Positions 1,077 to 19,259 of a DNA stretch of 26,038 bases are shown in pieces. The notes beneath the pieces are model-generated. The model was given only the letters and a program-made list of their open reading frames with translations, searched no databases and had not been told where the DNA came from. The stretch lies in IMG/VR virus record IMGVR_UViG_3300046167_000091, positions 1-26,038 of that record; one strand, 5' to 3'. A program made the translations under genes and the position numbers. Each line of letters opens with the position of its first letter. Position 1 is the stretch's first letter. This DNA comes from a virus.

Positions 1077-3155
1077 ATGAAAGACACCCTATATAGCCCA
1101 GATCCTCTGATGATAGATGAGTCCCTAGAAGACTGGGTGATGACTAAAGCAGAGGACTGGCGAGATAACTACGAGAGTAACTACGCTGAGAAGTTTGATG
1201 AGTACTATAGACTCTGGCGTGGTATCTGGGCATCAGAGGATCAACAGAAGCAATCAGAGCGCTCACGCATAATCAGCCCGGCTCTCCAGCAGGCCGTGGA
1301 GTCTAATGTTGCTGAGATGGAGGAAGCCACCTTTGGTCGTGGTAAGTTCTTTGACATCCAAGATAACTATGGAGACAAGGATTCTCAGGACATACTCTAC
1401 CTAAGGAACAAGTTAACTGAAGACTTTGAGAACACTAAGGTACGTAAGGCTGTCGCTGAGTGCTTAATCAACGCAGCAGTCTTTGGAACCGGGGTGGGTG
1501 AGATAGTCTTAGAGGAAATCAAAGAGATGGCCCCGGCTACTCAGCCTATGATGGATGGTCAACTACAGGCTGTAGGTGTCAACATTACAGACAGGGTAGT
1601 CGTTAAGTTAAAGCCTGTGATGCCTCAGAACTTCCTTATTGACCCTGTAGCCACATCCATTGAGGATGCTATGGGTGTAGCCATTGATGAGTTTGTAAGT
1701 CCACATCTAGTGGAGCAACTACAGGAGCAAGGGGTCTATAGGGACACCTATGTAGGCACAGCGTCCACAGACACAGACTTAGAGCCTGACCATGAAATCT
1801 CTGTATACAGTGATGACAAGGTTCGCCTAACGAAGTACTACGGCTTAGTCCCTAAGCAACTCTTAGATGAGGCCATGGATGATGAGGATGAGGAGGTAGA
1901 AAACCTAAGCTCCTCAGATGACAACAGTAGTTACGTAGAGGCTGTGGTAGTTATAGCTAACGGTGGTGTCCTCCTGAAGGCTGAGGCTAACCCCTACATG
2001 ATGCAAGACAGGCCTGTGGTAGCATTCCCATGGGACGTAGTACCCTCTATGTTCTGGGGTCGAGGTGTGTGTGAGAAGGGCTACAATAGCCAGAAGGCTT
2101 TGGATACTGAGCTTAGGGCTAGAATAGATGCTTTGGCTCTCACGATACATCCTATGTTAGCCATTGATGCCACTAAGTTCCCACGAGGGGCCAAGCCTGA
2201 GGTACGCCCCGGCAAGACTATATTAACCAATGGAGATCCTCGTGAAGTCTTACAGCCGTTCAACTTTGGTCAAGTGGGTCAGATCACGTTCGCCCAAGCA
2301 GCCTCCCTGCAACAGATGGTACAACAAGCTACTGGAGCAGTTGACTCAGCAGGACTCTCTGGTGCTGTTAATGGTGAAGCTACTGCCGCTGGTATCTCTA
2401 TGTCTCTTGGCGCTATTATTAAACGTCATAAGCGCACCTTAATTAACTTCCAACAGTCCTTCTTGATCCCCTTTGTCACTAAGGCTGCACATAGGTACAT
2501 GCAGTTTGACCCTGAGAACTACCCTGTGAAGGACTATAAGTTCAACGCTACATCAACCTTAGGTATCATAGCTAGGGAGTATGAGGTTACACAGCTTGTA
2601 CAACTCTTGCAGACTATGCAGCAGGATAGCCCTGTGTACCCTGTGTTGCTCCAGAGCATCGTAGATAACATGAACCTGAGTAACAGGGAAGAACTGATAG
2701 CCTCTATGCAGCAAGCGCAGCAGCCTAACCCTGAGGCTCAACAGGCAGCACAGCAAGCACAACAGGCGCAGCTTGAGTTCCAGCAGTCTCAGACAGCAGC
2801 GTTGGCTGCACAGGCTCAGGAGTCACAAGCGAGAGCACAGAAGTACTCTGTCGAAGCACAGCTTGAGCCTCAAGAGGTTGAGATTAAGAAGATTGAGGCT
2901 ATCACTAGAAACCTCCAAGCGGGTGACCAAGACGACAAAGAGTTTGAACGTAGGCTCAAGGTTGCTGAGGTTGTCCTAAAGGAGACTGAGCTTCAGGATA
3001 AGAAGAATGCTACTGAGTCTAAAGCAGCGGGGATTAAAGAGAAGGCTGAAGTAGACCTCCTTAACTCTCTAATGAGGGACGAAGGAGCCACCCCGGACAC
3101 CCCTAAGGGGCCTAGAGGTCCTGATGTAGGTACACCACCTCAGGGGGGCGTGTAA
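1077..3155 (+). CDS. Portal protein (head-tail connector)
   Basis: Portal proteins form the ring at one capsid vertex through which DNA enters and leaves and onto which terminase and tail bind. The product is 692 residues, larger than T7 gp8 as I recall it (just over 500). The first 500 residues look globular and include a stretch typical of podovirus portals (SRIISPALQQAVESNVAEME near residue 62, then a GTGVGEIVLEE segment). From about residue 543 the chain becomes extremely Gln/Ala-rich, followed by charged, coiled-coil-like sequence, and it ends in a Gly/Pro-rich tail. Such a tail would suit the long helical barrel some portals extend into the capsid, but that is inference. The start is two bases after the terminase stop, and the stop abuts the next ATG directly. 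Position and composition support the call; I cannot assign a portal subfamily. Confidence 0.88.
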   Translation: MKDTLYSPDPLMIDESLEDWVMTKAEDWRDNYESNYAEKFDEYYRLWRGIWASEDQQKQSERSRIISPALQQAVESNVAEMEEATFGRGKFFDIQDNYGDKDSQDILYLRNKLTEDFENTKVRKAVAECLINAAVFGTGVGEIVLEEIKEMAPATQPMMDGQLQAVGVNITDRVVVKLKPVMPQNFLIDPVATSIEDAMGVAIDEFVSPHLVEQLQEQGVYRDTYVGTASTDTDLEPDHEISVYSDDKVRLTKYYGLVPKQLLDEAMDDEDEEVENLSSSDDNSSYVEAVVVIANGGVLLKAEANPYMMQDRPVVAFPWDVVPSMFWGRGVCEKGYNSQKALDTELRARIDALALTIHPMLAIDATKFPRGAKPEVRPGKTILTNGDPREVLQPFNFGQVGQITFAQAASLQQMVQQATGAVDSAGLSGAVNGEATAAGISMSLGAIIKRHKRTLINFQQSFLIPFVTKAAHRYMQFDPENYPVKDYKFNATSTLGIIAREYEVTQLVQLLQTMQQDSPVYPVLLQSIVDNMNLSNREELIASMQQAQQPNPEAQQAAQQAQQAQLEFQQSQTAALAAQAQESQARAQKYSVEAQLEPQEVEIKKIEAITRNLQAGDQDDKEFERRLKVAEVVLKETELQDKKNATESKAAGIKEKAEVDLLNSLMRDEGATPDTPKGPRGPDVGTPPQGGV

Positions 3156-5867
3156 ATGGATGATTTAGCCCTCTTAATGCTTCTAGAGAAATTTAAGAAG
3201 CGCTTAAACAAGGTAGACGCTCGTACAGCCAAAGTATACAAGGACGGTGAGAGAGGCCCTCAGGGGCCACAGGGGCCTCAGGGGATCAAAGGGGAGGGTA
3301 CACAAGGCCCTAAGGGTGAACAAGGCTCACAGGGTCCTCAGGGGCCTCAGGGAGCCAATGGTTCCGATGGTTCCTCGGGTGTCGATGGGAGCGATGGTGA
3401 AGACGGAGTATCTATTGTAGATGCTGAGTTTGCTGCTGACGGTGACTTAGTGTTTACCCTCTCTGATGGTTCTGAGTTATCTGTAGAGATGCCTTTGGAC
3501 TCTAGTGGTGAGAAGAGTAACATCTTCATAAGCCAAGGGGGCGGAGGTAACTCAGGTGGCTCAGGTGGTGGTAGTATCGACATTGAGGAAAACATAGACT
3601 CAATTATTGAATCACTTGATCCTCGTTACATCAAGAAGGCTGGTGATACAGGGATTCAAAGTCTGTACTGGACAAAAGACCAGTCACTAGGTACTGATGG
3701 GGTCAACTTATTTACACTTCGCCCCAGTGCTGTGGACTATGTTGGGGATTACACTGAGGATGACCATGTAGCCACTAAGAAGAATGTCGATGATGCTATT
3801 GACAACATTGAACTGCTTGAAGGGCCAGAGGGTCCTGAGGGGCCGCAAGGCATACAAGGTGACAAAGGTGACAAAGGTGACACGGGAGACCAAGGATTAC
3901 CGGGGCCAACAGAGGTGTCCTCTGACGCTAACAACACAGCGGTACTCGGCACCGATGGTAAAATCTTTGTACCGGAGCCTATCAGTACGCCTAGCTTAGA
4001 CCTTCAGTGGTTCTTTCAAGATAATACCCGAGGGGAGCCAACTCCTAACTACTTCAGGACAGACCAGCGAGAGATTAACGACATTACTACGCTTGATCTA
4101 TCTTGGGTTTCGTTTGCTAACAGAGAGGTGGCTAACCTTCTAGGTGAGCTTAGGCAGGGCGATAAGATATACATACAGCAAAACAACGCTGAAGCTAACT
4201 ACGCTAACTTTGACATAACTGGCGACCCTATAGACAATGATACTTACTGGACTATTCCAGTCAATGCCTATGATGGTGGCGAACGTTTCTCTGTAGACGC
4301 AGGCTGTGTATTCCTATTCTGGCGATCTGCTTCTGAAGGTGGCACAGGAGGCGGAGGCTCTGATGAGAACGCATTGTCCTTTGCTAAGGGTGCAGGTCTA
4401 GCGGTAGAGCAAGGCTTACTGGCAGCAGACGGTCAACCCGCTAAGACGGTACTAGCCGTTGGCCCTACGAACACAGGTAAAGTCCAAGGCTGTAGCTTAG
4501 GCGCTGGTAACGTGGTCGAGGTCTACGCCAGTGGTGCTGACTACAACAACGCTACCGTGCTGTACCGTGAGTTCATGGGCGCAGGTGAGCCTATCTGCTT
4601 TACGGGTCTGAGTACCGGCGCAATCATAACGTCTACTCAAGGCTTCTATGGGATGAGCGAACAGTTAAACGGAAGTTACGAAAGCCCCATGCCTCTGCTA
4701 AGTCTAGGCTTGGCGTTTACAAGTACGTTTGTTTACTGCTTCCGAAACTCTAACAACTCCCCCGGCGCGGGTAACAGCACAGGGCAGATCACGATTATTA
4801 ACGGTGCGCTCCCCTCTACGGTGACATTCACTAGAAACGGCAACGAAGTTGGAGGTCAAGCCCCTAGAGACTTAGCCCCATTTGAGGCTTGCTACTACTA
4901 CAGTGACGCTAACGGCGAGTTCTTAATCGAAGCTACAAGCCCTGTCATGGCGTGTGTTCAAGCCTACATGGGATCTAACCCGCCCTTAGAAGTCGGCGAT
5001 GCGGGGGATAGTGCTCAACGATTCTATGACGCACGACTCGTTATGCCGCTGACTAATGACGGTATGACATGGCCGCGATCTGGATTCGTGAGTGCACCAT
5101 TTGCAGGTACGGAGTCTAAGTATTACGTGCGCGACGGTGTGACTGGAGACTTCCCAACGGTAAGTCCCGGCTCTCCCGTAGACTTCGACGCTGGTGGCAG
5201 CACAGGCGCAGCCGACCAAGACTACGAGCCAAGGGGCTGTACACGCCTAAGGGTAGCAGGTCTAGTATCAGCCTACTCTGGTGCAGACTCAGCGGGTCTT
5301 GAGGCATCACCTATGATGCCTGTAAGCGCTATGTCTCAGGTTGTAGCTCAACCATTCTTCATTGCTGACAACGGTGACGGAGGTAACTCAGGTGTTGCCA
5401 TCGGAAGTCCTTACGAGGGAACCGCTAAGGTTTACGAGTGGAACACAGCGACAGGCGTTGCTGACTTAGCCTACACAGTACCGCTAGGCAGAGGCACCAC
5501 AGGGCAGGGTATAGCCCCGGCAACACCGGAGGATCAATACATCCCTTGTGCTGGCATGGTAGCTAATGAACCAACACTCGATGCGGATCCCTCAGTGGTT
5601 CAGCTAGTAGGCGAGTTAAACCCCGGCTATATCGTAGCTGATGTGCCTATTACGGTGGTTGCTCAGAACGGCCTGCCTACCCTCGTTCCTGATATTCGTT
5701 CACAGAATGGCACAACAACTACAGGTATTGTATCGGACGATGACGAGACTCTGATGCTTGGCTGGACGCCAGCGCAGAAGAAGGCCGAGATCACTGAGGA
5801 TGCCGATGGATTTACCCGCAAACGAGTACTAGATAACACAGGAGCAGTAACGTGGCCCCTAACTTAA
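3156..5867 (+). CDS. Collagen-like fibre or capsid-appendage protein
   Basis: A 903-residue protein with two collagen-like Gly-X-Y tracts, at about residues 31-84 (one interruption near 46-48) and 223-250. Such tracts usually form trimeric rods in phage fibres. Between them lies a predicted compact segment and a flexible Gly/Ser linker (about 127-147), then a short region with the fibre-like phrase DDHVATKKNVDDAI. A second Gly-rich hinge is near residue 400. The last 500 residues are a large globular region rich in Gly, Ala, Thr and aromatics, with no lysine-rich or membrane segments, and I do not recognise its fold. The gene starts directly after the portal stop, so it is probably a virion component made with the head genes. 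It may be a head fibre, a tail spike or a side fibre; the sequence does not decide. The modular layout is clear but the exact role is not. Confidence 0.75.
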   Translation: MDDLALLMLLEKFKKRLNKVDARTAKVYKDGERGPQGPQGPQGIKGEGTQGPKGEQGSQGPQGPQGANGSDGSSGVDGSDGEDGVSIVDAEFAADGDLVFTLSDGSELSVEMPLDSSGEKSNIFISQGGGGNSGGSGGGSIDIEENIDSIIESLDPRYIKKAGDTGIQSLYWTKDQSLGTDGVNLFTLRPSAVDYVGDYTEDDHVATKKNVDDAIDNIELLEGPEGPEGPQGIQGDKGDKGDTGDQGLPGPTEVSSDANNTAVLGTDGKIFVPEPISTPSLDLQWFFQDNTRGEPTPNYFRTDQREINDITTLDLSWVSFANREVANLLGELRQGDKIYIQQNNAEANYANFDITGDPIDNDTYWTIPVNAYDGGERFSVDAGCVFLFWRSASEGGTGGGGSDENALSFAKGAGLAVEQGLLAADGQPAKTVLAVGPTNTGKVQGCSLGAGNVVEVYASGADYNNATVLYREFMGAGEPICFTGLSTGAIITSTQGFYGMSEQLNGSYESPMPLLSLGLAFTSTFVYCFRNSNNSPGAGNSTGQITIINGALPSTVTFTRNGNEVGGQAPRDLAPFEACYYYSDANGEFLIEATSPVMACVQAYMGSNPPLEVGDAGDSAQRFYDARLVMPLTNDGMTWPRSGFVSAPFAGTESKYYVRDGVTGDFPTVSPGSPVDFDAGGSTGAADQDYEPRGCTRLRVAGLVSAYSGADSAGLEASPMMPVSAMSQVVAQPFFIADNGDGGNSGVAIGSPYEGTAKVYEWNTATGVADLAYTVPLGRGTTGQGIAPATPEDQYIPCAGMVANEPTLDADPSVVQLVGELNPGYIVADVPITVVAQNGLPTLVPDIRSQNGTTTTGIVSDDDETLMLGWTPAQKKAEITEDADGFTRKRVLDNTGAVTWPLT
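3246..3403 (+). repeat. Collagen-type Gly-X-Y coding repeat, first tract
   Basis: The DNA is a degenerate 9-base repeat of the GGx-CCT-CAG kind, giving Gly-Pro-Gln triplets and then Gly-Ser-Asp/Gly-Glu-Asp triplets. There is a break in the Gly register near residues 46-48. Repeats of this kind change copy number easily by slippage. Confidence 0.85.
3822..3905 (+). repeat. Collagen-type Gly-X-Y coding repeat, second tract
   Basis: About nine Gly-X-Y triplets (GPEGPEGPQGIQGDKGDKGD and on). It includes an exact 9-base tandem unit, GGTGACAAA, at 3858-3866 and 3867-3875, followed by a partial third copy. Confidence 0.85.
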
Positions 5868-11214: not shown

Positions 11215-11766
11215 ATGAACTACACATACGAAATATTAGACTTTGTACCTGTAGACAGTAGGGCTAGAGTCGTTTTTGAGAAAGAAGGGAGTTTGGCCTA
11301 CTATAAGTTATTTATGTTGGCGTCTTTTGATCCAGAAGAAGTAAAGCAGCAGATAGAAGACTACGCTCCAGTGGTGTTTAACCATTGGAACAAAGCTGAT
11401 ATTGCCCCCACTATTAGCCCTGTAACAGGAAAGCAGAGTGCAACCTTTGAGAAACAGAAGGAGGTTCTGGTAGAAGACCCTGAGCCTGTTACCGACCCTA
11501 TTACTGAGATGAACGTAGAGGTTGTCAAAGAGACAGAAGACGCGATTATCTACACTTACCCCGTAGAAACTAGACCTCAAGAAGACCAAGCTGCCGTGAT
11601 TAGAGGCATGAGAAACTATGAGCTAGGGCTGACTGACTTCCATGCTTTGTCTGATAGAGACATGAGTCCAGAGATGGCGGAATATCGACAGGCTCTAAGG
11701 GACGTACCACAGCAGGCTGGATTCCCACAAAACGTAGAGTGGCCTACAGCTACTATGGAGGTCTAA
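11215..11766 (+). CDS. Putative tail-fibre assembly chaperone
   Basis: A 183-residue acidic protein. The C-terminal 35 residues (MSPEMAEYRQALRDVPQQAG, then FPQNVEWPT) match the pattern of phage tail-assembly chaperones, a YRQALRDxPQQxGFPxxVxWP signature at the end of a variable protein. The first 140 residues are not recognised and are rich in Glu, Val and Thr. Such proteins help fold or assemble fibres and are normally encoded directly downstream of the fibre, as here. GGGGA, starting right after the previous stop, gives a ribosome site. The call rests on the short C-terminal signature and gene order. Confidence 0.7.
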   Translation: MNYTYEILDFVPVDSRARVVFEKEGSLAYYKLFMLASFDPEEVKQQIEDYAPVVFNHWNKADIAPTISPVTGKQSATFEKQKEVLVEDPEPVTDPITEMNVEVVKETEDAIIYTYPVETRPQEDQAAVIRGMRNYELGLTDFHALSDRDMSPEMAEYRQALRDVPQQAGFPQNVEWPTATMEV

Positions 11767-11906
11767 TGAAGACCTTAGTAGCCCTAGCACTCGTGTTACT
11801 CTGTGGATGCTCAGGCACACTACGAGAGAAATCTACGGTGTGCTTGGGCTTCTGTGCTCACACTGAAGTTGAAACTGAAACTCACACAAAGGAAATCAAG
11901 AAATGA
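11766..11906 (+). CDS. 46-residue predicted lipoprotein
   Basis: A small gene with a classical export signal: MKTLVALALVLLCGCSGTL. A basic residue at position 2 is followed by a 12-residue hydrophobic core and a lipobox-like L-C-G-C, so Cys15 would be lipidated after signal peptidase II cleavage. Cys at the -2 position is unusual. The mature part is about 32 residues, has two further Cys (positions 26 and 30) and ends in a charged His/Thr/Glu/Lys stretch. GGAGG at 11757-11761 stands four bases before ATG, the start overlaps the previous stop (TAATG), and the stop overlaps the next start (ATGA), which strongly supports it as a gene. It could be an outer-spanin-like lysis protein or a superinfection-exclusion lipoprotein; nothing decides between them. 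Confidence 0.8.
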   Translation: MKTLVALALVLLCGCSGTLREKSTVCLGFCAHTEVETETHTKEIKK

Positions 11907-12220
11907 ATGCATTTGTTCTACTACTTACCTTAGTCACCTTCTCTACTATGGCTGCTGAGATTTACTTAGATGACGGTAGGGTCGTAGCGTTACCTGTAGG
12001 CTCCAAGGTGTACATAGATGATGGGACTGTATGGACGTTCACTAGGTTCAACGAGGGTGGCTTCGACATTAGACCTTTGACACCTTTGGTGGAGATTACT
12101 GAGGTATGCCCCCAGTCGGGGTTAACCTTTGGTGGCAGCAGTGGCTCCTGTGTAGTAGAAGAGGTCGTAGAGGAGACAGAAGAAGCCTGCGATGGGTTAA
12201 CCTTCGGTGGTGGCTGTTAA
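11903..12220 (+). CDS. Small secreted protein with GLTFGG motifs
   Basis: A 105-residue protein with an N-terminal signal peptide (MNAFVLLLTLVTFSTMAA, probable cleavage before EIYLDD). The mature part begins with a beta-rich unit of the form YLDDGRVVALPVGSKVYIDD followed by TVWTF, a pattern I associate with uncharacterised small marine-phage proteins. The C-terminal third is acidic, has four Cys, and contains GLTFGG twice, the second copy at the very end (DGLTFGGGC). It overlaps the lipoprotein gene by four bases (ATGA), suggesting the two exported proteins are made together at the envelope. The function is unknown. Confidence 0.8.
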   Translation: MNAFVLLLTLVTFSTMAAEIYLDDGRVVALPVGSKVYIDDGTVWTFTRFNEGGFDIRPLTPLVEITEVCPQSGLTFGGSSGSCVVEEVVEETEEACDGLTFGGGC

Positions 12221-12249
12221 GAATACATAGAATCCATAAGGGGTAAGTT

Positions 12250-13485
12250 ATGGCTGTAGGAAGAGACGTAATGGGCGCTGACGGCCTAACTAATGCTCAG
12301 AGGTACGCTAAGAGACAGGCAGATAAGCAGGCTAAAAGAGCTGCTAGTAAGGCGGCGTCTGATGCTAGGAAAGCTGCGGCAGCTAAGGAAGCAGCAGCTA
12401 TGGCTTCTGTGTCAAGCCCTAGTAGTATGTTTGGTGGTCTTATGGGGACAACACAGCAGGTAAGGAACCCACCACCTTCAGACACGCTAGGCTTTGGGCA
12501 TCAACAGACAACGCCTATAAAAACACAGACACCTCCGCCGCCTGCGGCTACTACTCAGGATACATTAGGCTTTGGGCATGAACAGACCACTACGACTCCC
12601 CCGCCTCCTCCGGTTAACGGAGGTATGTTGACTCCTTTAGAGCAACTAGCGGCTGATGGTAATACTAAGGCACAGCAACGAGAACAGGCTGCTGATGATC
12701 TCTACGGTATGTCTAATGCACAGCGAGAGGCGCTTCAAGGGTACTATGACCGTGGAATCATTGATCCAGCGACTAACTTAATTTCTGAGGAGTTCTTACT
12801 CAACCCTGAGAACAATGATGCCTTGTATCAGATGTTCACAGGAGGCTTAGGCTTAGGTAAGAATGACCTACACTCATCGTTAATATCACAGGCGCAAGCT
12901 GGGTGGACTGCTCAAGGGCAAGCTGCGAATCCTTACGATGCAGCGGCAAACGATGGGCTAACCTTTGGTGGTGGTTCTAACGCTGGTGACTACGTTGAAA
13001 CACCCCCAACATACGTAGATCCTCCACCTCCTCCAACTACTGTGGTTGATCCACCGCCTTCTCAGGTAGACCCTGATACACGTAGGCAAGAAGAGCAAGA
13101 CGCTAGAAACAAGGCATTCATGGACTTCTTGAGTAGCCTCGGTTTGAGTTCTTTAGTGGATCTATTTAACGGTATCAATGTTCCTTCAGGAGGTCTAGCG
13201 GGTTCTAATGCTGCTGAGTCTACGTATACACCTTATACACCTGAGGCTTACACACCATCTCAGGTAGACTATAACTCTATGTTAACTACAGCTAACGAGG
13301 TGGGCTATGACCCCTACAGAGGCCTCTATAACGTCCCTGACGCCATGAAGAGCACGGCAGACCAGTTAGGCCTCTTTAGTTACATAAATCCTCCTCAGGC
13401 GACTCCTGCGGCTCCTTACGACCCTATGGCTAATATCACGGTACCTACCATAGACTATACTCAGCTTGCTAAAACAGGAGACTGA
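12250..13485 (+). CDS. Large Pro/Ala-rich unknown protein, probably virion-associated
   Basis: A 411-residue protein I do not recognise. Residues 15-55 form a highly charged Ala/Lys helix (KRQADKQAKRAASKAASDAR). Residues 65-125 and 250-280 are Pro/Thr-rich and disordered, with two DTLGFGH[QE]QT copies (from residues 78 and 104). A folded-looking region spans about 130-220, and a DGLTFGGGS copy starts near residue 235. The C-terminal third is Tyr/Pro-rich with repeated YTPxxYTP. There are no membrane segments or signal peptide. Its place between exported proteins and the tail tube, and its low-complexity make-up, suggest a virion or assembly protein. AAGGGG lies upstream, and the stop is one base before the GTG start of the next gene. 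Confidence 0.8.
   Translation: MAVGRDVMGADGLTNAQRYAKRQADKQAKRAASKAASDARKAAAAKEAAAMASVSSPSSMFGGLMGTTQQVRNPPPSDTLGFGHQQTTPIKTQTPPPPAATTQDTLGFGHEQTTTTPPPPPVNGGMLTPLEQLAADGNTKAQQREQAADDLYGMSNAQREALQGYYDRGIIDPATNLISEEFLLNPENNDALYQMFTGGLGLGKNDLHSSLISQAQAGWTAQGQAANPYDAAANDGLTFGGGSNAGDYVETPPTYVDPPPPPTTVVDPPPSQVDPDTRRQEEQDARNKAFMDFLSSLGLSSLVDLFNGINVPSGGLAGSNAAESTYTPYTPEAYTPSQVDYNSMLTTANEVGYDPYRGLYNVPDAMKSTADQLGLFSYINPPQATPAAPYDPMANITVPTIDYTQLAKTGD
13476..13480 (+). promoter_or_regulatory. Shine-Dalgarno that selects a GTG start
   Basis: AGGAG ends six bases before GTG at 13487. It favours that codon over the in-frame TTG at 13466, which would overlap the upstream gene by 20 bases and has no comparable site. 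The ATG at 13485 opens only a seven-codon frame. Confidence 0.7.
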
Positions 13486-13486
13486 T

Positions 13487-15439
13487 GTGGCTGATACTTA
13501 TAATGTAATCACAGATAACGAGAGAACCTCCGAAGTTGAGGGACTCTTTGGTGCAACAGGGGAAGATAAGTCGAATGCCCCTGACTGGGGTGGCGTTAAG
13601 ACAGCAGAGGAGCTAAGGAGCGAATACGAGGGCGATGCGTACCTAGAGAGTGTCTTCGGCACCTTTGATAACTACTTAGGGTATATGACTGAAGCCAGTG
13701 ATATGCTAGGTAGACAAAACTGGTGGACAGCCGAAGGGGTAGATAAGAGAGGCACCGGGGATAAGATTAGAGAAGATGGGCAAGAGGATATAGGTAGAAG
13801 TCCTGCTCAACAGACGGCCACAGATGACCTCAGACAAGCTGACTCATCCGCTAGGAACAGTGGTTACCAGCAGTGGTTAATGTCGGATGAAAACCAAGCT
13901 CTTATGCAGAAGTACGGCATTGAGCAGAAGTTCACTGATGAGAAAGGTGATAAGTACACTTGGACAGGTAATGGGTACATGCGTACCTATGTTAACAACG
14001 AAGCTCGTATGGGAGGCATGGAAATAGGGAAGGGTTTAATCGCTGCCATGTACGCCTACGGTGGTGGCGCCGTTGCTGCAAATTTATTAGGAGGTACGGC
14101 AGGAGCAGTAGCAGGTACAGCAACATCAGCCCCTATATCTGTTGGGACACCTGTTTACACGGCTGCTGGTCAAGCGGTCACTACTGGTTCATCTATAGCT
14201 TCTTCTTTAGCTTCTGCTACAGGATTAACAGCAGGTACCATTAGTACCGCTGGTGGAGCCATGGTTGGTAGCTCAATAAGCCAACTTATGTTAACAGGGG
14301 ATATAGACCCAACTAAGGTACTCGTTAGTGGTGTAACAGCAGGGATACTTGAGACAGCTAACGCCTTACAAAATATGGACCCATCTATAGTCACCTCTGA
14401 TACTATGGGGTTCTTATACGATAAAGTAGATAAATTATCAGAGCTACTTAACACAGACTACGAGACAGCCTTAGATATAGCCAAAGCTGTATCTATAGGA
14501 GCTATAGAAGGTGACGACTTAGAGGGTATAGTTAAGAGTTCTCTGTCAGTCTTAGGTGCTGATGAGATAACAGACTTCCTGAGTGAAACAGTGGGTCTAG
14601 AGATTCCTAACTTCTTTGAAGAAGGTACGACTACTATTAACTCTAATGCTGTAGAAGAGGCAGCTAGGGTTCTACTCCGGGATGGTATGAACGGAGAGTT
14701 AGACGAAGGTACCTTACTAAGCATGGGCTTAGGATACATCAGGAACGATGGTAGCTTTGCCTTCGCTGATCCTTCCTCTCTGTTTCCCGACAGCGGCGAC
14801 TTTGACATCTTTGATGGTTTCTTTGATGGTTTTGAGAACCCCTTTGAAGGCTTTGACTTTGACCTCAAGGGTGGCGATGGGTTTGGCTTAGACTTCACTA
14901 GTAACGAGGCTCAAGCCTTAGCTGACTCAGACACCTTTGGTGAATACTTTGACCCTAATGATTACGATAATAATGTTATCCTACAGTATGACCAAGGTAC
15001 TGTGGATTCTATCATGGGAATCATAGAGGCTGCTAAAGAGGCTGGGAGAGACTTTGATGACTCTGTGTTGCAGCCTATTAAAACAACGATACAGGAAGCA
15101 GGGTACGCCATTGATGACAATGTATTACAACCTATCAAAGATGGAGCCATAGCTCTCTACGATATGTTACCTGATGTAAGCATAGGTGGTCCTAACCTAA
15201 GTGGGACTAACTTAAGTGGGCCTGACTTACCTAACGCAGACACAGGGGGTTTTGACTTCCCTGATCTTAAATTTGGTAAACCCTTCGGTGACGAGTTAGA
15301 AGGCTTTAATCCTTTTGCTGCTCCTGCTTTAGGTAATGAAATACCTTTGTTGGCTAAGGTTAAGCCTCAGGATGCTTATGATCCTAGGAGAGCAGGATCG
15401 TCTATAGTTTCATCTATGTTTGCGGAGTACTTAGGATGA
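13487..15439 (+). CDS. Large unknown virion-type protein with Gly/Ala hydrophobic region
   Basis: The product is 650 residues from the GTG start. The N-terminal 160 residues are charged and look folded. Residues 183-260 are Ala/Gly/Thr-rich and hydrophobic (GLIAAMYAYGGGAVAANLLG, then ATGLTAGTISTAGGAMVGSS), which could insert in membranes. The region around 430-480 is Phe/Asp/Gly-repetitive (FDGFFDGFENPFEGFDFD). Two related segments contain VLQPIK (DDSVLQPIKTTIQEAG and DDNVLQPIKDGAIALYD), and short NLSG-type repeats come near the end. An acidic protein with an Ala/Gly hydrophobic stretch just before the tail tube genes fits an ejection or tail-associated protein, but I recognise no family. Its last four bases overlap the next start. 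Confidence 0.8.
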   Translation: MADTYNVITDNERTSEVEGLFGATGEDKSNAPDWGGVKTAEELRSEYEGDAYLESVFGTFDNYLGYMTEASDMLGRQNWWTAEGVDKRGTGDKIREDGQEDIGRSPAQQTATDDLRQADSSARNSGYQQWLMSDENQALMQKYGIEQKFTDEKGDKYTWTGNGYMRTYVNNEARMGGMEIGKGLIAAMYAYGGGAVAANLLGGTAGAVAGTATSAPISVGTPVYTAAGQAVTTGSSIASSLASATGLTAGTISTAGGAMVGSSISQLMLTGDIDPTKVLVSGVTAGILETANALQNMDPSIVTSDTMGFLYDKVDKLSELLNTDYETALDIAKAVSIGAIEGDDLEGIVKSSLSVLGADEITDFLSETVGLEIPNFFEEGTTTINSNAVEEAARVLLRDGMNGELDEGTLLSMGLGYIRNDGSFAFADPSSLFPDSGDFDIFDGFFDGFENPFEGFDFDLKGGDGFGLDFTSNEAQALADSDTFGEYFDPNDYDNNVILQYDQGTVDSIMGIIEAAKEAGRDFDDSVLQPIKTTIQEAGYAIDDNVLQPIKDGAIALYDMLPDVSIGGPNLSGTNLSGPDLPNADTGGFDFPDLKFGKPFGDELEGFNPFAAPALGNEIPLLAKVKPQDAYDPRRAGSSIVSSMFAEYLG

Positions 15440-16083
15440 CATATTTAGAAGTAGTAAACAACGTCCTGAGAAGGATACGAGAAGAAGAGGTACCTAGCGT
15501 TGACTCTACTACCTACAGTAAAATGATAGGTGACTTTGTTAACGATGCTAAGAAGATTGTAGAAACCTCTTGGGACTGGTCAGCCTTACGTACTACAGTA
15601 GTGTTCACAACCTCTGAGGATGTCTTTAATTACCCCTTAGAAGATACTAAGGATACTGTGAAGGCTTTGAATGTAATCAACGATACCTCTAACTTCTTCA
15701 TGGACTACCGTACTACTGACTGGTTTGACAATCAGTATTACAACCAAGATCCAGTTAAGGGGTCACCTCAGTTGTACACCTATAGGGGCCTTGATTCTAA
15801 CGGTGACACTCAGATAGATGTATACCCTAAGCCTGACGGTGCTTACGTTGTTAGGTTCAACTGTGTCTTACGTAACGATGAGTTAGTGGCTGACACAGAT
15901 AATCTAATGATTCCTAACATGCCTGTGATTCACCTCGCGGTAGCCTTATCAGCCCGTGAGCGAGGCGAGACAGGAGGTACATCAACAGCCGAGTACTTTG
16001 CTATCGCTGATACTTACCTGTCTGACGCTATTGCTCTGGACGCACAGAAGCACCCTTATGCAACAGACTGGTATACCCCTTAG
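15436..16083 (+). CDS. Tail tubular protein A (T7 gp11-like adaptor)
   Basis: A 215-residue protein that should form the adaptor ring joining portal to nozzle. It begins with the family pattern (YLEVVNNVLRRIREEEVPSV), continues with DFVNDAKKIVETSWDWSAL, the Asn/Asp-Ala-Lys and Trp-x-Trp element typical of gp11-like proteins, then a beta-rich middle with YYNQDPVKGSPQLYTY, and ends in a helical region (HLAVALSARERGETGGTSTA). The length is close to T7 gp11 (196). It is coupled to the previous gene by ATGA and followed by the gp12-like gene, the standard order in T7-like phages. Confidence 0.9.
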   Translation: MTYLEVVNNVLRRIREEEVPSVDSTTYSKMIGDFVNDAKKIVETSWDWSALRTTVVFTTSEDVFNYPLEDTKDTVKALNVINDTSNFFMDYRTTDWFDNQYYNQDPVKGSPQLYTYRGLDSNGDTQIDVYPKPDGAYVVRFNCVLRNDELVADTDNLMIPNMPVIHLAVALSARERGETGGTSTAEYFAIADTYLSDAIALDAQKHPYATDWYTP

Positions 16084-16093
16084 GAGCTAGTGT

Positions 16094-17611
16094 ATGGCCC
16101 AGCCCTTACAAAGTATAAACCTAGTTGCTCCTGCGTTCAAAGGGATCAACACTGAGGATTCCCCGTTAGCTCAGGACCCCTCGTTTGCTGATGTTGCAGA
16201 TAACGCTGTGATCGACAAGCGAGGACGTATTGCAGCACGTAAAGGTCTTGATACGCTTACTAACTATAAGTCAGAGTTAGGTACTGATTACGTACACTCA
16301 ATACACGAGTTCTTCGATGAATCAGGTAATACTGTCGTGTTCAGCATGGGTAACGATAAGATACTCTCAGGAGTCCATGCCTTTGTCGATGAAACGCCAG
16401 CAGGTTACGTCATTGCAGAGAACGACTGGCGCACCGTAAACTTCAATAATGCTGCTTACTTCTTCCAGAGAGGACAAGAGCCACTCATCTATACCGCCAC
16501 AGGTGGCCTTCAGACCTTTGGTGACTACGAAGGACACACGACTCCTACGACTTTGTATTGTAATGAAGCTGCTGCGGCATACGGTAGACTCTGGGTAGTC
16601 GATAGTAACGAAGGTGCACAGATTATCTATTGGTCTGACTTACTCAACGGTACTGATTTCTCTAGTGGCTCCTCAGGCTCTATAAATATTTCTGAGGCGT
16701 GGCCTGATGGTGCCGATAGTGTCGTAGGCATCGCAGCACACAACAGCCTCCTAATTATCTTTGGTAGACGCAGCATCATTGTGTACGAAGGTGCAGAATC
16801 CCCAGCTACTATGGCTATTGTTGACACAGTTCCCGGCGTAGGTTGCATTGATAGAAACTCTATACAGCACATCGGTACTGACATACTCTTCCTAGATGAC
16901 ACAGGGCTTAGGAGCTTTGGTAGAACCATCCAAGAGAAGTCTATGCCTATTAGCGACCTCAGTGGTAACATCAAGACTGAGTTCATTGAGACTCTTGTTA
17001 ACCGACAGGGGCCAGTAGCAACTATTTATTCACCAGAGAATACATTTTACCTCGTGTCGTTCCCCTCTAATAACCTTACGTACTGCTTTGATCTTAAGGG
17101 TAGGACAGAGAACGGGTCGTACAGGGTTACTCGTTGGCCCTCTAGTTATTTCTTCTCCTTTGAGACTCTTGCTAACGGAGAGCTTCTTGTGGGTAACACT
17201 AACGGTCTAAGCATCTACTCAGGATACTCAGACAACGGTAATCCTTATCGCTTTAGGTACTACAGTCCGGGGCTAACCTTTGGTGACCCTTCAAAGCTAA
17301 AGATCCTTAAGAAGCTTAGGCCCACCATTGTAGGCGCTAACTCAGCTACAGTGTTTCTTTACTGGGCCTATGACTTTAGTACTGCGTATAGATCCCAAGC
17401 ATACACTGTAGGTAATCAAGACCCGGCCTTCTATAACATTTCTGAGTTCAACATAGGCGAGTTCACTGGCGGTACTTTGGTTTCCCGAAGGGCTGTTAAC
17501 ACCACAGGAGACGGTAGTGTGATAACAATTGGACTTGAAGCAGACATCAATGGGTTCGCTTTGTCACTACAAGAAATTAACGTACTAGCACTGATAGGTA
17601 AAACATTATGA
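16094..17611 (+). CDS. Tail tubular protein B (gp12-like nozzle)
   Basis: A 505-residue protein expected to form the tail nozzle below the adaptor. Its start (INLVAPAFKGINTEDSPLAQ, then DPSFADVADNAVIDKRGRIA) is characteristic of nozzle proteins in marine podoviruses: a glycine-rich loop, then NA-x-D-x-x-G-x-I-x-x-RKG. The rest is beta-rich, with repeated Trp/Gly/Asn blades (RLWVVDSNEGAQIIYWSDLL; AHNSLLIIFGRRSIIVYEG) consistent with a beta-propeller. AGGAG at 16082-16086 overlaps the stop of the upstream gene and lies seven bases from ATG. At 505 residues it is shorter than T7 gp12 (about 794), which suits a compact nozzle. The next gene starts within its last four bases. Confidence 0.88.
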   Translation: MAQPLQSINLVAPAFKGINTEDSPLAQDPSFADVADNAVIDKRGRIAARKGLDTLTNYKSELGTDYVHSIHEFFDESGNTVVFSMGNDKILSGVHAFVDETPAGYVIAENDWRTVNFNNAAYFFQRGQEPLIYTATGGLQTFGDYEGHTTPTTLYCNEAAAAYGRLWVVDSNEGAQIIYWSDLLNGTDFSSGSSGSINISEAWPDGADSVVGIAAHNSLLIIFGRRSIIVYEGAESPATMAIVDTVPGVGCIDRNSIQHIGTDILFLDDTGLRSFGRTIQEKSMPISDLSGNIKTEFIETLVNRQGPVATIYSPENTFYLVSFPSNNLTYCFDLKGRTENGSYRVTRWPSSYFFSFETLANGELLVGNTNGLSIYSGYSDNGNPYRFRYYSPGLTFGDPSKLKILKKLRPTIVGANSATVFLYWAYDFSTAYRSQAYTVGNQDPAFYNISEFNIGEFTGGTLVSRRAVNTTGDGSVITIGLEADINGFALSLQEINVLALIGKTL

Positions 17612-17841
17612 GCAATTATACACCAACAACAGACTTTGCCTCTAAGGATGCTTTGCCTTCAGGTGATCCAGCTAAGATTATCAAAGGTACTGACTTTACC
17701 GTAGAGTTTGATAACATTGCAACAGCAGTGGCGTCTAAGGCTAACACAGATAGCCCTACGTTCACAGGTGTTGTAACAATTGCTGACCTCAACTTTGTAG
17801 GTACGCTGGATTCAGGGACAATCGACGGAGGTACTTACTAA
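17608..17841 (+). CDS. Small fibre-type structural protein
   Basis: A 77-residue protein. The first half (TDFASKDALPSGDPAKIIKG, then TDFTVEFDNIATAVASKANT) is a pattern seen at the N-terminus of tail fibres, and the second half (SPTFTGVVTIADLNFVGTLD) resembles fibre-shaft sequence ending in SGTIDGGTY. It is therefore like a fibre reduced to its attachment region and one shaft repeat. It is linked to its neighbours by ATGA (17608-17611) and TAATG (17839-17843) overlaps, so it is probably translated in register with the nozzle. Whether it is a minor tail protein or the remnant of a longer fibre is not clear, but no decayed continuation is seen downstream. Confidence 0.78.
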   Translation: MSNYTPTTDFASKDALPSGDPAKIIKGTDFTVEFDNIATAVASKANTDSPTFTGVVTIADLNFVGTLDSGTIDGGTY

Positions 17842-18383
17842 TGGGTCTTGTATCTGATGTAATGGGAGCAATTGTAGGGTCTGATGTTGACCTAGGTGAC
17901 CTCTATAATAACATAGGCACCACAGGACAGCTTGCTCAGGGGGCTGCTGGAGAACTTGCTGCACAGTTGCCGGGGATGACTCAGTTTCAACCCTTCACTG
18001 TTACCAGTGGTACTTCTAATGTTAACATGACACCTCAGGGTGGTTTTAACATAGGTCTCTCTGAGGGCGCTCAGGCACAACAGAATGCCCTGAGACAACA
18101 AGCTAACTACTACATGACTCAGCCTGTTCAAGGAGCTAACCAAACTAACTTAGCAGCTAACCAAGCATTTAATTTAGCTAATGATCCTAACAGGCTTATC
18201 TATGACAGGAGCCAATGCTTACCAAGGATACACTGGCTTACAGAATCAAGCAGGAGACTTATCTTCTCAGTTCTTAGGGTCTGCCCCTGTTGGTGCTCTG
18301 TCTTCTCAGGGAGCAGGACTACAGGCGTTACAGTCAGGTATGGGACAAATGAACCAAGTACCTGCCGGGGCTTATCAGACTAG
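17841..18383 (+). CDS. N-terminal fragment of the broken internal virion gene
   Basis: The first reading frame, with GGAGG (17827-17831) nine bases before ATG. About 124 residues are protein-like (up to NLANDPNRLIYDRS); after base 18213 the frame turns into Cys/Arg/Trp-rich out-of-frame sequence before stopping at 18383. The genuine part includes Gln/Asn-rich GAQAQQNALRQQANYYMTQP. Confidence 0.7.
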   Translation: MGLVSDVMGAIVGSDVDLGDLYNNIGTTGQLAQGAAGELAAQLPGMTQFQPFTVTSGTSNVNMTPQGGFNIGLSEGAQAQQNALRQQANYYMTQPVQGANQTNLAANQAFNLANDPNRLIYDRSQCLPRIHWLTESSRRLIFSVLRVCPCWCSVFSGSRTTGVTVRYGTNEPSTCRGLSD

Positions 18384-18897
18384 AGATGCAGCCTCTACAG
18401 CTTTTGGTGCTGGTCAAGATTTCATGTCAGGCTTAGGTCAATCCACAGCAGGGCGAGAGGCCGACATCTACAATAGAATCAGAGCAACTCAGAGTCCTGA
18501 GGAAGAGCGTCAGCGCATGGCTCTAGAGGAGCGTCTGTTTAACCAAGGGCGCTCAGGTGTCTCTACTAACATGTACGGTGGTACTCCAGAGCAACTTGCG
18601 ATGGCTAAAGCTGAAGGAGAGTCACGTAACCAAGCGTACCTAGCAGCCATGGGTCAGGCGCAAGCAGAGCAGGCTCAACAAGCCACCCTAGGATCGCAGT
18701 TCATGGGATTAGGTAGTTCTCTATCTGGACAAGAGCAGGCATTAAGGAGCGCACAGCAGCAGAGGGCTATACAAGCTTCCGGTGCAGGTCAACAGATGCT
18801 TGCAGGGTGCTCAGGGTATGCAACAGGCGCAACTTGGGTTAGGCGCAGGAGCCGCAGGTCCTCATGGGTCAACTTGGGCAGCAACGACAGGGCCTAA
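18181..18897 (+). CDS. Middle fragment of the broken internal virion gene
   Basis: The second frame. The ATG at 18181 is probably not a real start because the preceding frame is still coding there. Convincing protein runs from about NAYQGYTGLQNQAGDLSSQF (18213 on) to QQMLAG (18807). It is Gln/Gly/Ala-rich with a charged helix (ATQSPEEERQRMALEERLFN). After 18807 the frame becomes Arg/Trp/Cys-rich (VRRRSRRSSWV) and stops, typical of leaving the true frame. Confidence 0.65.
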   Translation: MILTGLSMTGANAYQGYTGLQNQAGDLSSQFLGSAPVGALSSQGAGLQALQSGMGQMNQVPAGAYQTRDAASTAFGAGQDFMSGLGQSTAGREADIYNRIRATQSPEEERQRMALEERLFNQGRSGVSTNMYGGTPEQLAMAKAEGESRNQAYLAAMGQAQAEQAQQATLGSQFMGLGSSLSGQEQALRSAQQQRAIQASGAGQQMLAGCSGYATGATWVRRRSRRSSWVNLGSNDRA

Positions 18898-19259
18898 TGT
18901 CTCAGAACCTTCAGGATGTACTAGCGGCACAGCAGATGGGCGCTGGTCTCGCTGGATCTTCGTTTGGTTTACAGCAGGCACAGCAGCAGCTAGGCTTAGG
19001 TGCTTTGGGTGCTTCTTACTTACCAGAGCAACAGGCTCTAGGAATGCTATCCGCTGCTGCACCTTACGCATCAATAGCAGACGTAGGACGCCGACAGGGT
19101 GCTACTATGTACGGAGAGACTGCAATGTCAGGACTGGATGCTATGATGGCAGGACAGTTGGGACAAGCTAACCTCATCGGTGGAATCGTACCGGGAGTTG
19201 TACAAGGGCTAGGCAACATTGCAGCCACGGGTATCGAAGCTATCGCATCAAAGTTTTAA
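18864..19259 (+). CDS. C-terminal fragment of the broken internal virion gene
   Basis: This is back in the first frame. The convincing part begins at LMGQLGQQRQGLMSQNLQDV. Gln/Gly-rich helices (AQQMGAGLAGSSFGLQQAQQ, QLGLGALGASYLPEQQALGM) follow, then a Gly/Ala/Ile-rich end. The ATG at 18864 lacks a good ribosome site, so independent translation is doubtful. About 18 codons between this and the middle fragment (18808-18861) are coded in a third frame as GAQGMQQAQLGLGAGAAG. Confidence 0.65.
   Translation: MGQLGQQRQGLMSQNLQDVLAAQQMGAGLAGSSFGLQQAQQQLGLGALGASYLPEQQALGMLSAAAPYASIADVGRRQGATMYGETAMSGLDAMMAGQLGQANLIGGIVPGVVQGLGNIAATGIEAIASKF

Follow-up and report, generated by a model that had tools for sequence, protein, structure and literature searches.

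Among the described systems closest to the locus studied here are two small proteins of phage T4. As presented in excerpts of PMC7677548, Spackle is a small phage protein that is exported to the periplasm, carries a disulfide and targets a component used by incoming virions; its fold is a helical bundle, and the protein it binds is the gp5 lysozyme. The antiholin RI, as outlined in portions of PMC8385771 and PMC6832632, is a small protein that reaches the periplasm by means of a cleavable signal peptide; it works with the lysis genes, responds to superinfection and binds the holin T. The phage protein family considered below, termed P1, resembles Spackle, as far as these excerpts portray it, in its small size, predicted export to the periplasm and probable disulfide, but is predicted to consist of a beta domain and a floppy tail rather than a helical bundle. 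With RI as portrayed in those portions, P1 shares a small size, predicted export and, in its relatives, a setting among lysis genes; unlike the setting of RI, the record examined here is without the holin kind found beside other P1 genes.

The window, by which we mean the whole stretch of DNA analysed, is an entire virus record of 26,038 bases from a tailed phage. Family searches identified genes for a portal, a major capsid protein, an S74-type fibre, a tail-fibre chaperone and an SU10-type adaptor; the minus strand also encodes a B12-type ribonucleotide reductase, whose best match is from a Roseobacter phage (62%). A 903-amino-acid ORF at 3156-5867, with collagen-like GPQGPQG stretches close to its N-terminus, is apparently a fibre. 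At 17841-19259, three overlapping ORFs in different frames correspond to one gene in relatives (a single ORF of 323 amino acids in L083, about 505 amino acids in L011), and the window copy seems to be frameshifted or misread. The P1 gene (P0001) and its neighbor P0002 are flanked by the fibre genes on one side and the adaptor on the other, and the features of this region are as follows.

11766..11906, plus strand: lipoprotein-like ORF, 46 amino acids plus stop, directly 5' of P1.
11903..12220, plus strand: P1 (P0001), 105 amino acids, with a Sec-type N-terminal hydrophobic segment; modeled with AlphaFold2.
12107..12151, plus strand: first Cys loop of P1, C69-PQS-GLTFGG-SSGS-C83, with the motif GLTFGG at 12119-12136.
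12188..12217, plus strand: C-terminal Cys loop of P1, C96-DGLTFGGG-C105, with the motif at 12191-12214 and Cys105 as the final residue.
12250..13485, plus strand: P0002, 411 amino acids, Cys-free, Pro-rich and probably disordered, with three motif copies.
12481..12510, plus strand: P0002 motif copy DTLGFGHQQT.
12559..12588, plus strand: P0002 motif copy DTLGFGHEQT.
12952..12975, plus strand: P0002 motif copy DGLTFGGG.
13487..15439, plus strand: 650-amino-acid partner gene of P0002, with a GTG start picked by eye.
15436..16083, plus strand: tail adaptor gene (SU10_adaptor; PF24175, E=4e-14), the far boundary of the variable locus.

A preliminary description of this DNA had reported five copies of a short motif in P1 and P0002 (GLTFGG, DGLTFGGG and DTLGFGH forms), and all five lie exactly where it placed them. 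The consensus it gave, D-x-L-x-F-G, fits four of the five, but the copy at 12119 has Ser rather than Asp in front (SGLTFGG); the copy at 12191, which it put at the very C-terminus, does lie in the terminal region, but one residue more, Cys105, follows it. The two proteins are unrelated, as it had said, in that BLASTP similarity between them is limited to the motif. In 100,000 joint shuffles of P1 and P0002, none equalled the observed copies of D.L.FG (one in P1 and three in P0002) or of [LF][TG]FG[GH] (two and three), the latter pattern having been picked post hoc with the data already seen. The motif copies are not explained by composition. A further GLTFG, absent from the earlier list, occurs at 17270-17284 in the 505-amino-acid protein that starts at 16094. 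We rejected this sequence, GLTFGDP of the nozzle protein, as a sixth copy, since it belongs to a fixed structural piece in which PGLTFGDP aligns with PDMDYGDN of Pelagibacter phage HTVC104P.

The DNA of the copies at 12191-12214 and 12952-12975 is identical at 21 of 24 bases, as had been noted, but this match is ordinary: random encodings of DGLTFGGG with the codon usage of the window average 18.3 of 24, and 6.7% reach 21, so the match is nothing special as a sign of DNA-level kinship. The Thr codons of the motif copies in the large genes described below are mixed (ACC 8, ACA 6, ACG 10 and ACT 6), and the agreement among 23 distinct LTFGG copies, 11.64 of 15 bases, is close to the 11.25 that codon usage by itself would give. 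Because synonymous sites vary as chance predicts, it is the peptide and not the DNA that is conserved, and the small mobile coding element proposed in the preliminary description finds no support. It is, by the same token, highly improbable that the copies arose by recombination, as a duplicated or mobile piece of coding sequence passed between genes with no selected function. Such spread would suit the clearly mosaic nature of the locus and the presence, in an L009-type large gene, of EEEECDPFTFGGGSGC, which is nearly identical to the P1 tail of L004; it is largely refuted by the divergence of synonymous sites to chance level, and it is also at odds with flanks that change while the peptide stays and with an unrelated lipoprotein-like ORF that bears the motif at its extreme end.

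In the AlphaFold2 model of P1 (mean pLDDT 55.6), residues 18-58 are predicted to form a small beta domain, and residues 61-105, with pLDDT below 50, make up a C-terminal tail; the model itself is poor. Both motif copies are in the tail, each enclosed by a Cys pair (C69-PQSGLTFGGSSGS-C83 and C96-DGLTFGGG-C105). The Cys and TFGG residues of the first loop are invariant in 13 aligned P1 sequences, and Cys96, Asp97, the Phe-Gly pair and the last Cys of the C-terminal loop are kept in 26 of 26 aligned sequences (P0001 and 25 relatives of 28-99% identity to it). Profile scans of IMG/VR yielded 37 relatives of P1 with a first profile and 204 with a second, of which the best 80 were sampled. P1 has no relatives in the GTDB genomes searched and no match to a Pfam, NCBIfam or PDB family above threshold; its score against DUF6719 (PF20477) is 16.2 bits, below the gathering score of 27. 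PHROGs returned nothing for P0001 and, for eight of its relatives, a single weak match (L073 to phrog_34256, function unknown, E=0.0008).

Two types of P1 tail were distinguished over 118 distinct contigs: the FG motif characterizes 62 of them and an EF-hand-like sequence the other 56; the distinguishing pattern was composed after reading the sequences, and because the contigs are the best 80 plus earlier matches, the proportions are not population figures. All 61 complete FG-type proteins have at least one motif within a Cys pair (two motifs in 46 and one in 15). Distant members (L072-L084) end in C..DGLGFG[HYPG].C, the same form as the DTLGFGH of P0002. The EF-type tail reads WCxAYxPWxEGLTFxMxxWQRxCDTNxDG or a near form, and in 56 of 56 contigs a DTNxDGxY element is accompanied by a C..G[LFYW][TSN][FW]..C loop, again by a post hoc pattern. 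The EF-type contigs, with their GLTF-containing Cys loop, are L089, L093-L103, L108-L112 and L114-L152, and the gene is often close to an M15 peptidase gene and a terminase gene. A T4-like contig (L106, 3580-4406) carries two adjacent P1 genes on opposite strands with different tail types.

The related Cys loop in all of these EF-type contigs is an argument that the motif serves as a structural or fold-forming loop without a binding function, and FG turns would suit both disulfide loops and flexible linkers. We nevertheless regard this explanation as unlikely, since the large neighboring protein keeps these residues in linear segments, acidic or Pro-rich and mostly Cys-free, which would not be expected to fold.

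One large, highly variable gene occupies the space from P1 to the adaptor, and in many relatives P0002 and the 13487 protein correspond to a single fused version of it, so that the gene is split in the window. The 650-amino-acid protein at 13487 matched no family, and its predicted structure is poor (mean pLDDT 38); it carries DLKFGKP, present in L004 too, which may be another, weak variant of the motif. Versions of the large gene include collagen-like (L018, PF01391), KD-rich, Cys-rich (54-88 Cys) and Pro-rich forms that share recurring N- and C-terminal pieces. The locus (12250-15439 and its counterparts) is hypervariable, with versions swapping between conserved ends in close relatives whose flanking genes are very similar.

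The pattern [LFYV][TGA]FG[GHP] is found in 14 of 23 non-redundant complete large genes, with up to seven copies each, and the stricter [LF][TG]FG[GH] in 12 of the 23; ORFs below 330 amino acids were excluded from this count, and the P0002-like proteins of L080 (311 amino acids) and L073 (203 amino acids), read by eye, have no copy. The nine complete large genes without the motif include all four Cys-rich ones, and the adjoining P1 retains its motif. The motif is thus not obligatory in the large protein, as the Cys-rich and collagen-like versions without it demonstrate. Where present, it stands in differing surroundings: Pro-rich in the window and L004, KD-rich in L005 and L006, acidic in L009 and L027, and at the extreme N-terminus in L036. 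In P0002, the motif flanks consist of 65-82% disorder-promoting residues, compared with 60% for the whole protein. At the slot equivalent to 12481, TLGFGH is kept in seven of nine aligned sequences (P0002 included) and lost in L016 and L080, the L016 motif having decayed to DDFGTT. L004 reads DTLGFGPEQA at the 12559 slot and EGLTFGGG at the 12952 slot, and L017 and L024 have LTFGD instead of LTFGG. The motif, whose absence or lack of conservation in homologues had been named in advance as grounds for dismissing it, is conserved in homologues of both P1 and P0002.

LTFGG and LGFGH/P are forms of a single motif, as judged from sequence comparison, because they swap at the same slot and coexist in one protein. 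The large-gene slot NLNANNGSDSLGFGHEGG of L085 corresponds to NLNANDDSDDFTFGGDSG of L087 (SDSLGFGHEGG versus SDDFTFGGDSG), and the P1 of L154 combines both forms, C-IDQLGFGPEQ-C and a terminal CDDGLTFGGGC. Similarly, DELGFGGAATTKD of L036 stands at the position of GGLTFGGAATTKD of L005. A third kind of protein also carries the motif: at the place of P1, L172 has a lipoprotein-like ORF of 277 amino acids (3077-3889) that ends in TQCDDTLTFGGGC (CDDTLTFGGGC) and is matched by none of three P1 queries in tblastn, and L156 has the same terminal sequence. This ORF, like most P1 proteins, places the motif at its very C-terminal end, where the final Cys closes it, a position that would suit a processing or sorting signal such as a cleavage or anchoring tag on exported phage proteins. 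We consider such a role improbable, given that the motif is internal and repeated in the large genes, that P1 likewise has its first Cys loop inside the protein, and that no transmembrane stretch follows the C-terminal loop.

The motif is almost confined to this locus. The 46 codon matches to [LF]TFGG in 12 whole virus records (351 kb) all fall within P1 or the large gene, as verified with hand-converted coordinates, and the reversed pattern gives one match in the same records. Throughout IMG/VR, CDxFTFGG occurs in 32 contigs, 29 of them of the window's phage kind, comprising 26 P1 contigs of the first profile, two with a distant P1 (L057 and L065) and one with an L009-type large gene (L058); the occurrences in L044, L049 and L053 look like chance. 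For the linear form [DE][DE]x[LF]TFGGG, IMG/VR yields 29 contigs, as against nine for a control with FT in place of TF. At least one queried gene (P1, adaptor, nozzle, holin or XhlA-like) is present in 16 of these 29 and in none of the nine controls. L181, counted among the 16, comes from a different phage with only the holin in common and bears EDDFTFGGG in a Pro-rich protein. A seventeenth contig, L156, is tied to the locus through the L172 protein end, and the remaining 12 look like chance. Chance or low complexity as the source of the motif is ruled out by the shuffles, the confinement in whole records and the scrambled control. The cultured-phage collections searched contain no relatives of P0001, P0002, the EF-type P1, the L172 lipoprotein-like ORF, the L154 P1 or a protein of L175. 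Literature searches with the motif consensus gave no known motif and nothing phage-related bearing on it among the matches listed, and those for the locus gave no description among the matches listed. The conserved short motif is real, no prior description of it was found, and its support exceeds what the preliminary description could know.

The genes around P1 provide a setting for its function. In 30 of 62 FG-type contigs, P1 is followed directly by an XhlA-like ORF and a GTA-type holin, identified as PF11351 (E about 1e-20) in L004 and L057 and by tblastn relationship in the others; in 33 of 56 EF-type contigs, a relative of the M15 peptidase lies within 1.5 kb of P1 (for both counts, duplicate contigs were removed and six rows re-typed by hand). 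The gene order in L131-L133, L136 and L139 is XhlA-like, P1, holin and M15, and in L084 a phage lysozyme lies directly 5' of P1. The frequent presence of P1 beside holin or endolysin genes in relatives suggests that it acts in the periplasm, in lysis or in controlling superinfection. The window record and those of L012, L013, L018 and L019 are without holin and M15 genes (no PF11351 and no PF08291), so that the window phage is linked to lysis only through the P1 family. A holin as the universal partner of the motif is unlikely in view of these five records without PF11351, all of which may be fragments. FG-type P1 also adjoins UvsW-like genes of T4-like phages, and its occurrence there argues for a partner independent of a single virion type. 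In these T4-like loci no neighboring protein bears the motif within the stretches examined. The lipoprotein-like ORF at 11766-11906 (MKTLVALALVLLCGCSGTLREKST...) is beside P1 in many relatives and after P1 in L085-L087. It has a weak match to the Cor exclusion lipoprotein (NF047972; E=0.0048, 16.9 bits), below the curated cut-off of 31. The cor gene is placed after the tail genes, and the placement of this ORF resembles it.

Docking to a common partner, which the preliminary description had suggested, is the best reading of the motif: conservation in both sets of homologues and the occurrence on an unrelated lipoprotein agree with it, and the binding itself is deduced from these patterns. A virion component, the example of a partner given in that description, is a possible candidate. 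The motif, roughly acidic-x-[L/F]-[T/G]-F-G-[G/H/P], probably lets the exported and the large protein grip the same partner, given that it is kept in many related phages. P1, exported as judged from its N-terminal segment, would display it as one or two loops closed by Cys pairs that may form disulfides in the periplasm, the last loop at or next to the C-terminus. The large protein would display it linearly, in one to seven copies set in acidic or Pro-rich stretches that are probably floppy, and its position in the gene order suggests that it is probably in the virion. In the infected cell, P1 could then occupy a site used by the virion protein and so affect lysis timing or superinfection. Because P1 loops are also found in T4-like phages with different structural genes, we consider a host-derived partner, located in the cell envelope, the most likely. 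Several results count against docking: the nine of 23 large genes that are without the motif although the adjoining P1 keeps it, so that the pairing is not obligatory; the changed or decayed copies of L016, L017 and L024; the T4-like loci where only P1 bears the motif; and L175, in which two large genes bear it although no P1 lies just upstream. The full proposal, a protein-level short linear docking motif on two kinds of phage protein with one common partner, may equally well hold or fail.

The near confinement of the motif to two adjoining genes, and tandem copies that reach seven and would suit avidity, could also mean that FG-to-FG cohesion holds P1 and the large protein to each other, or each to its own kind, with no third partner, P1 capping or sequestering the virion protein in the periplasm. 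This is unlikely, however, since P1 loops persist where the large protein is without the motif (nine of 23) and in T4-like loci without a motif-bearing neighbor, and since the motif-bearing large genes of L175 have no P1 just upstream. A more specific version of docking makes P1 and its lipoprotein stand-in periplasmic or outer-membrane decoys. They would fill an envelope docking site and block later ejection, or the motif-bearing protein ejected by later virions would displace P1 and thereby signal superinfection to the lysis machinery. We judge this quite unlikely; if true, it would represent superinfection exclusion or lysis inhibition by molecular mimicry, in which a single peptide opens and closes the door.

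Docking to a common partner, if correct, would place the same recognition peptide on an exported protein and a probable virion protein. Should the motif dock a host envelope factor, it would offer a short handle on the interaction of a large group of uncultured phages with the periplasm and would link an exported, often lysis-linked family of 204 relatives to a fast-evolving tail-adjacent gene. The two P1 loops are small enough for peptide synthesis and use as bait. With respect to the T4 proteins, P1 has no Pfam, PHROGs, NCBIfam or PDB match to Spackle- or RI-like families, and the relationship is consequently a likeness of setting, not membership, to the extent that the cited excerpts allow the comparison. 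The general class of viral short linear motifs offers a second comparison, in that such motifs comprise few residues in floppy stretches, recur in unrelated proteins and vary in copy number, and the FG motif is likewise short, recurrent and variable in copy number, in stretches that are probably floppy. As in that class, the FG motif recurs between proteins without other similarity (P0001 and P0002; the L172 ORF and P1) and is conserved amid varying flanks.
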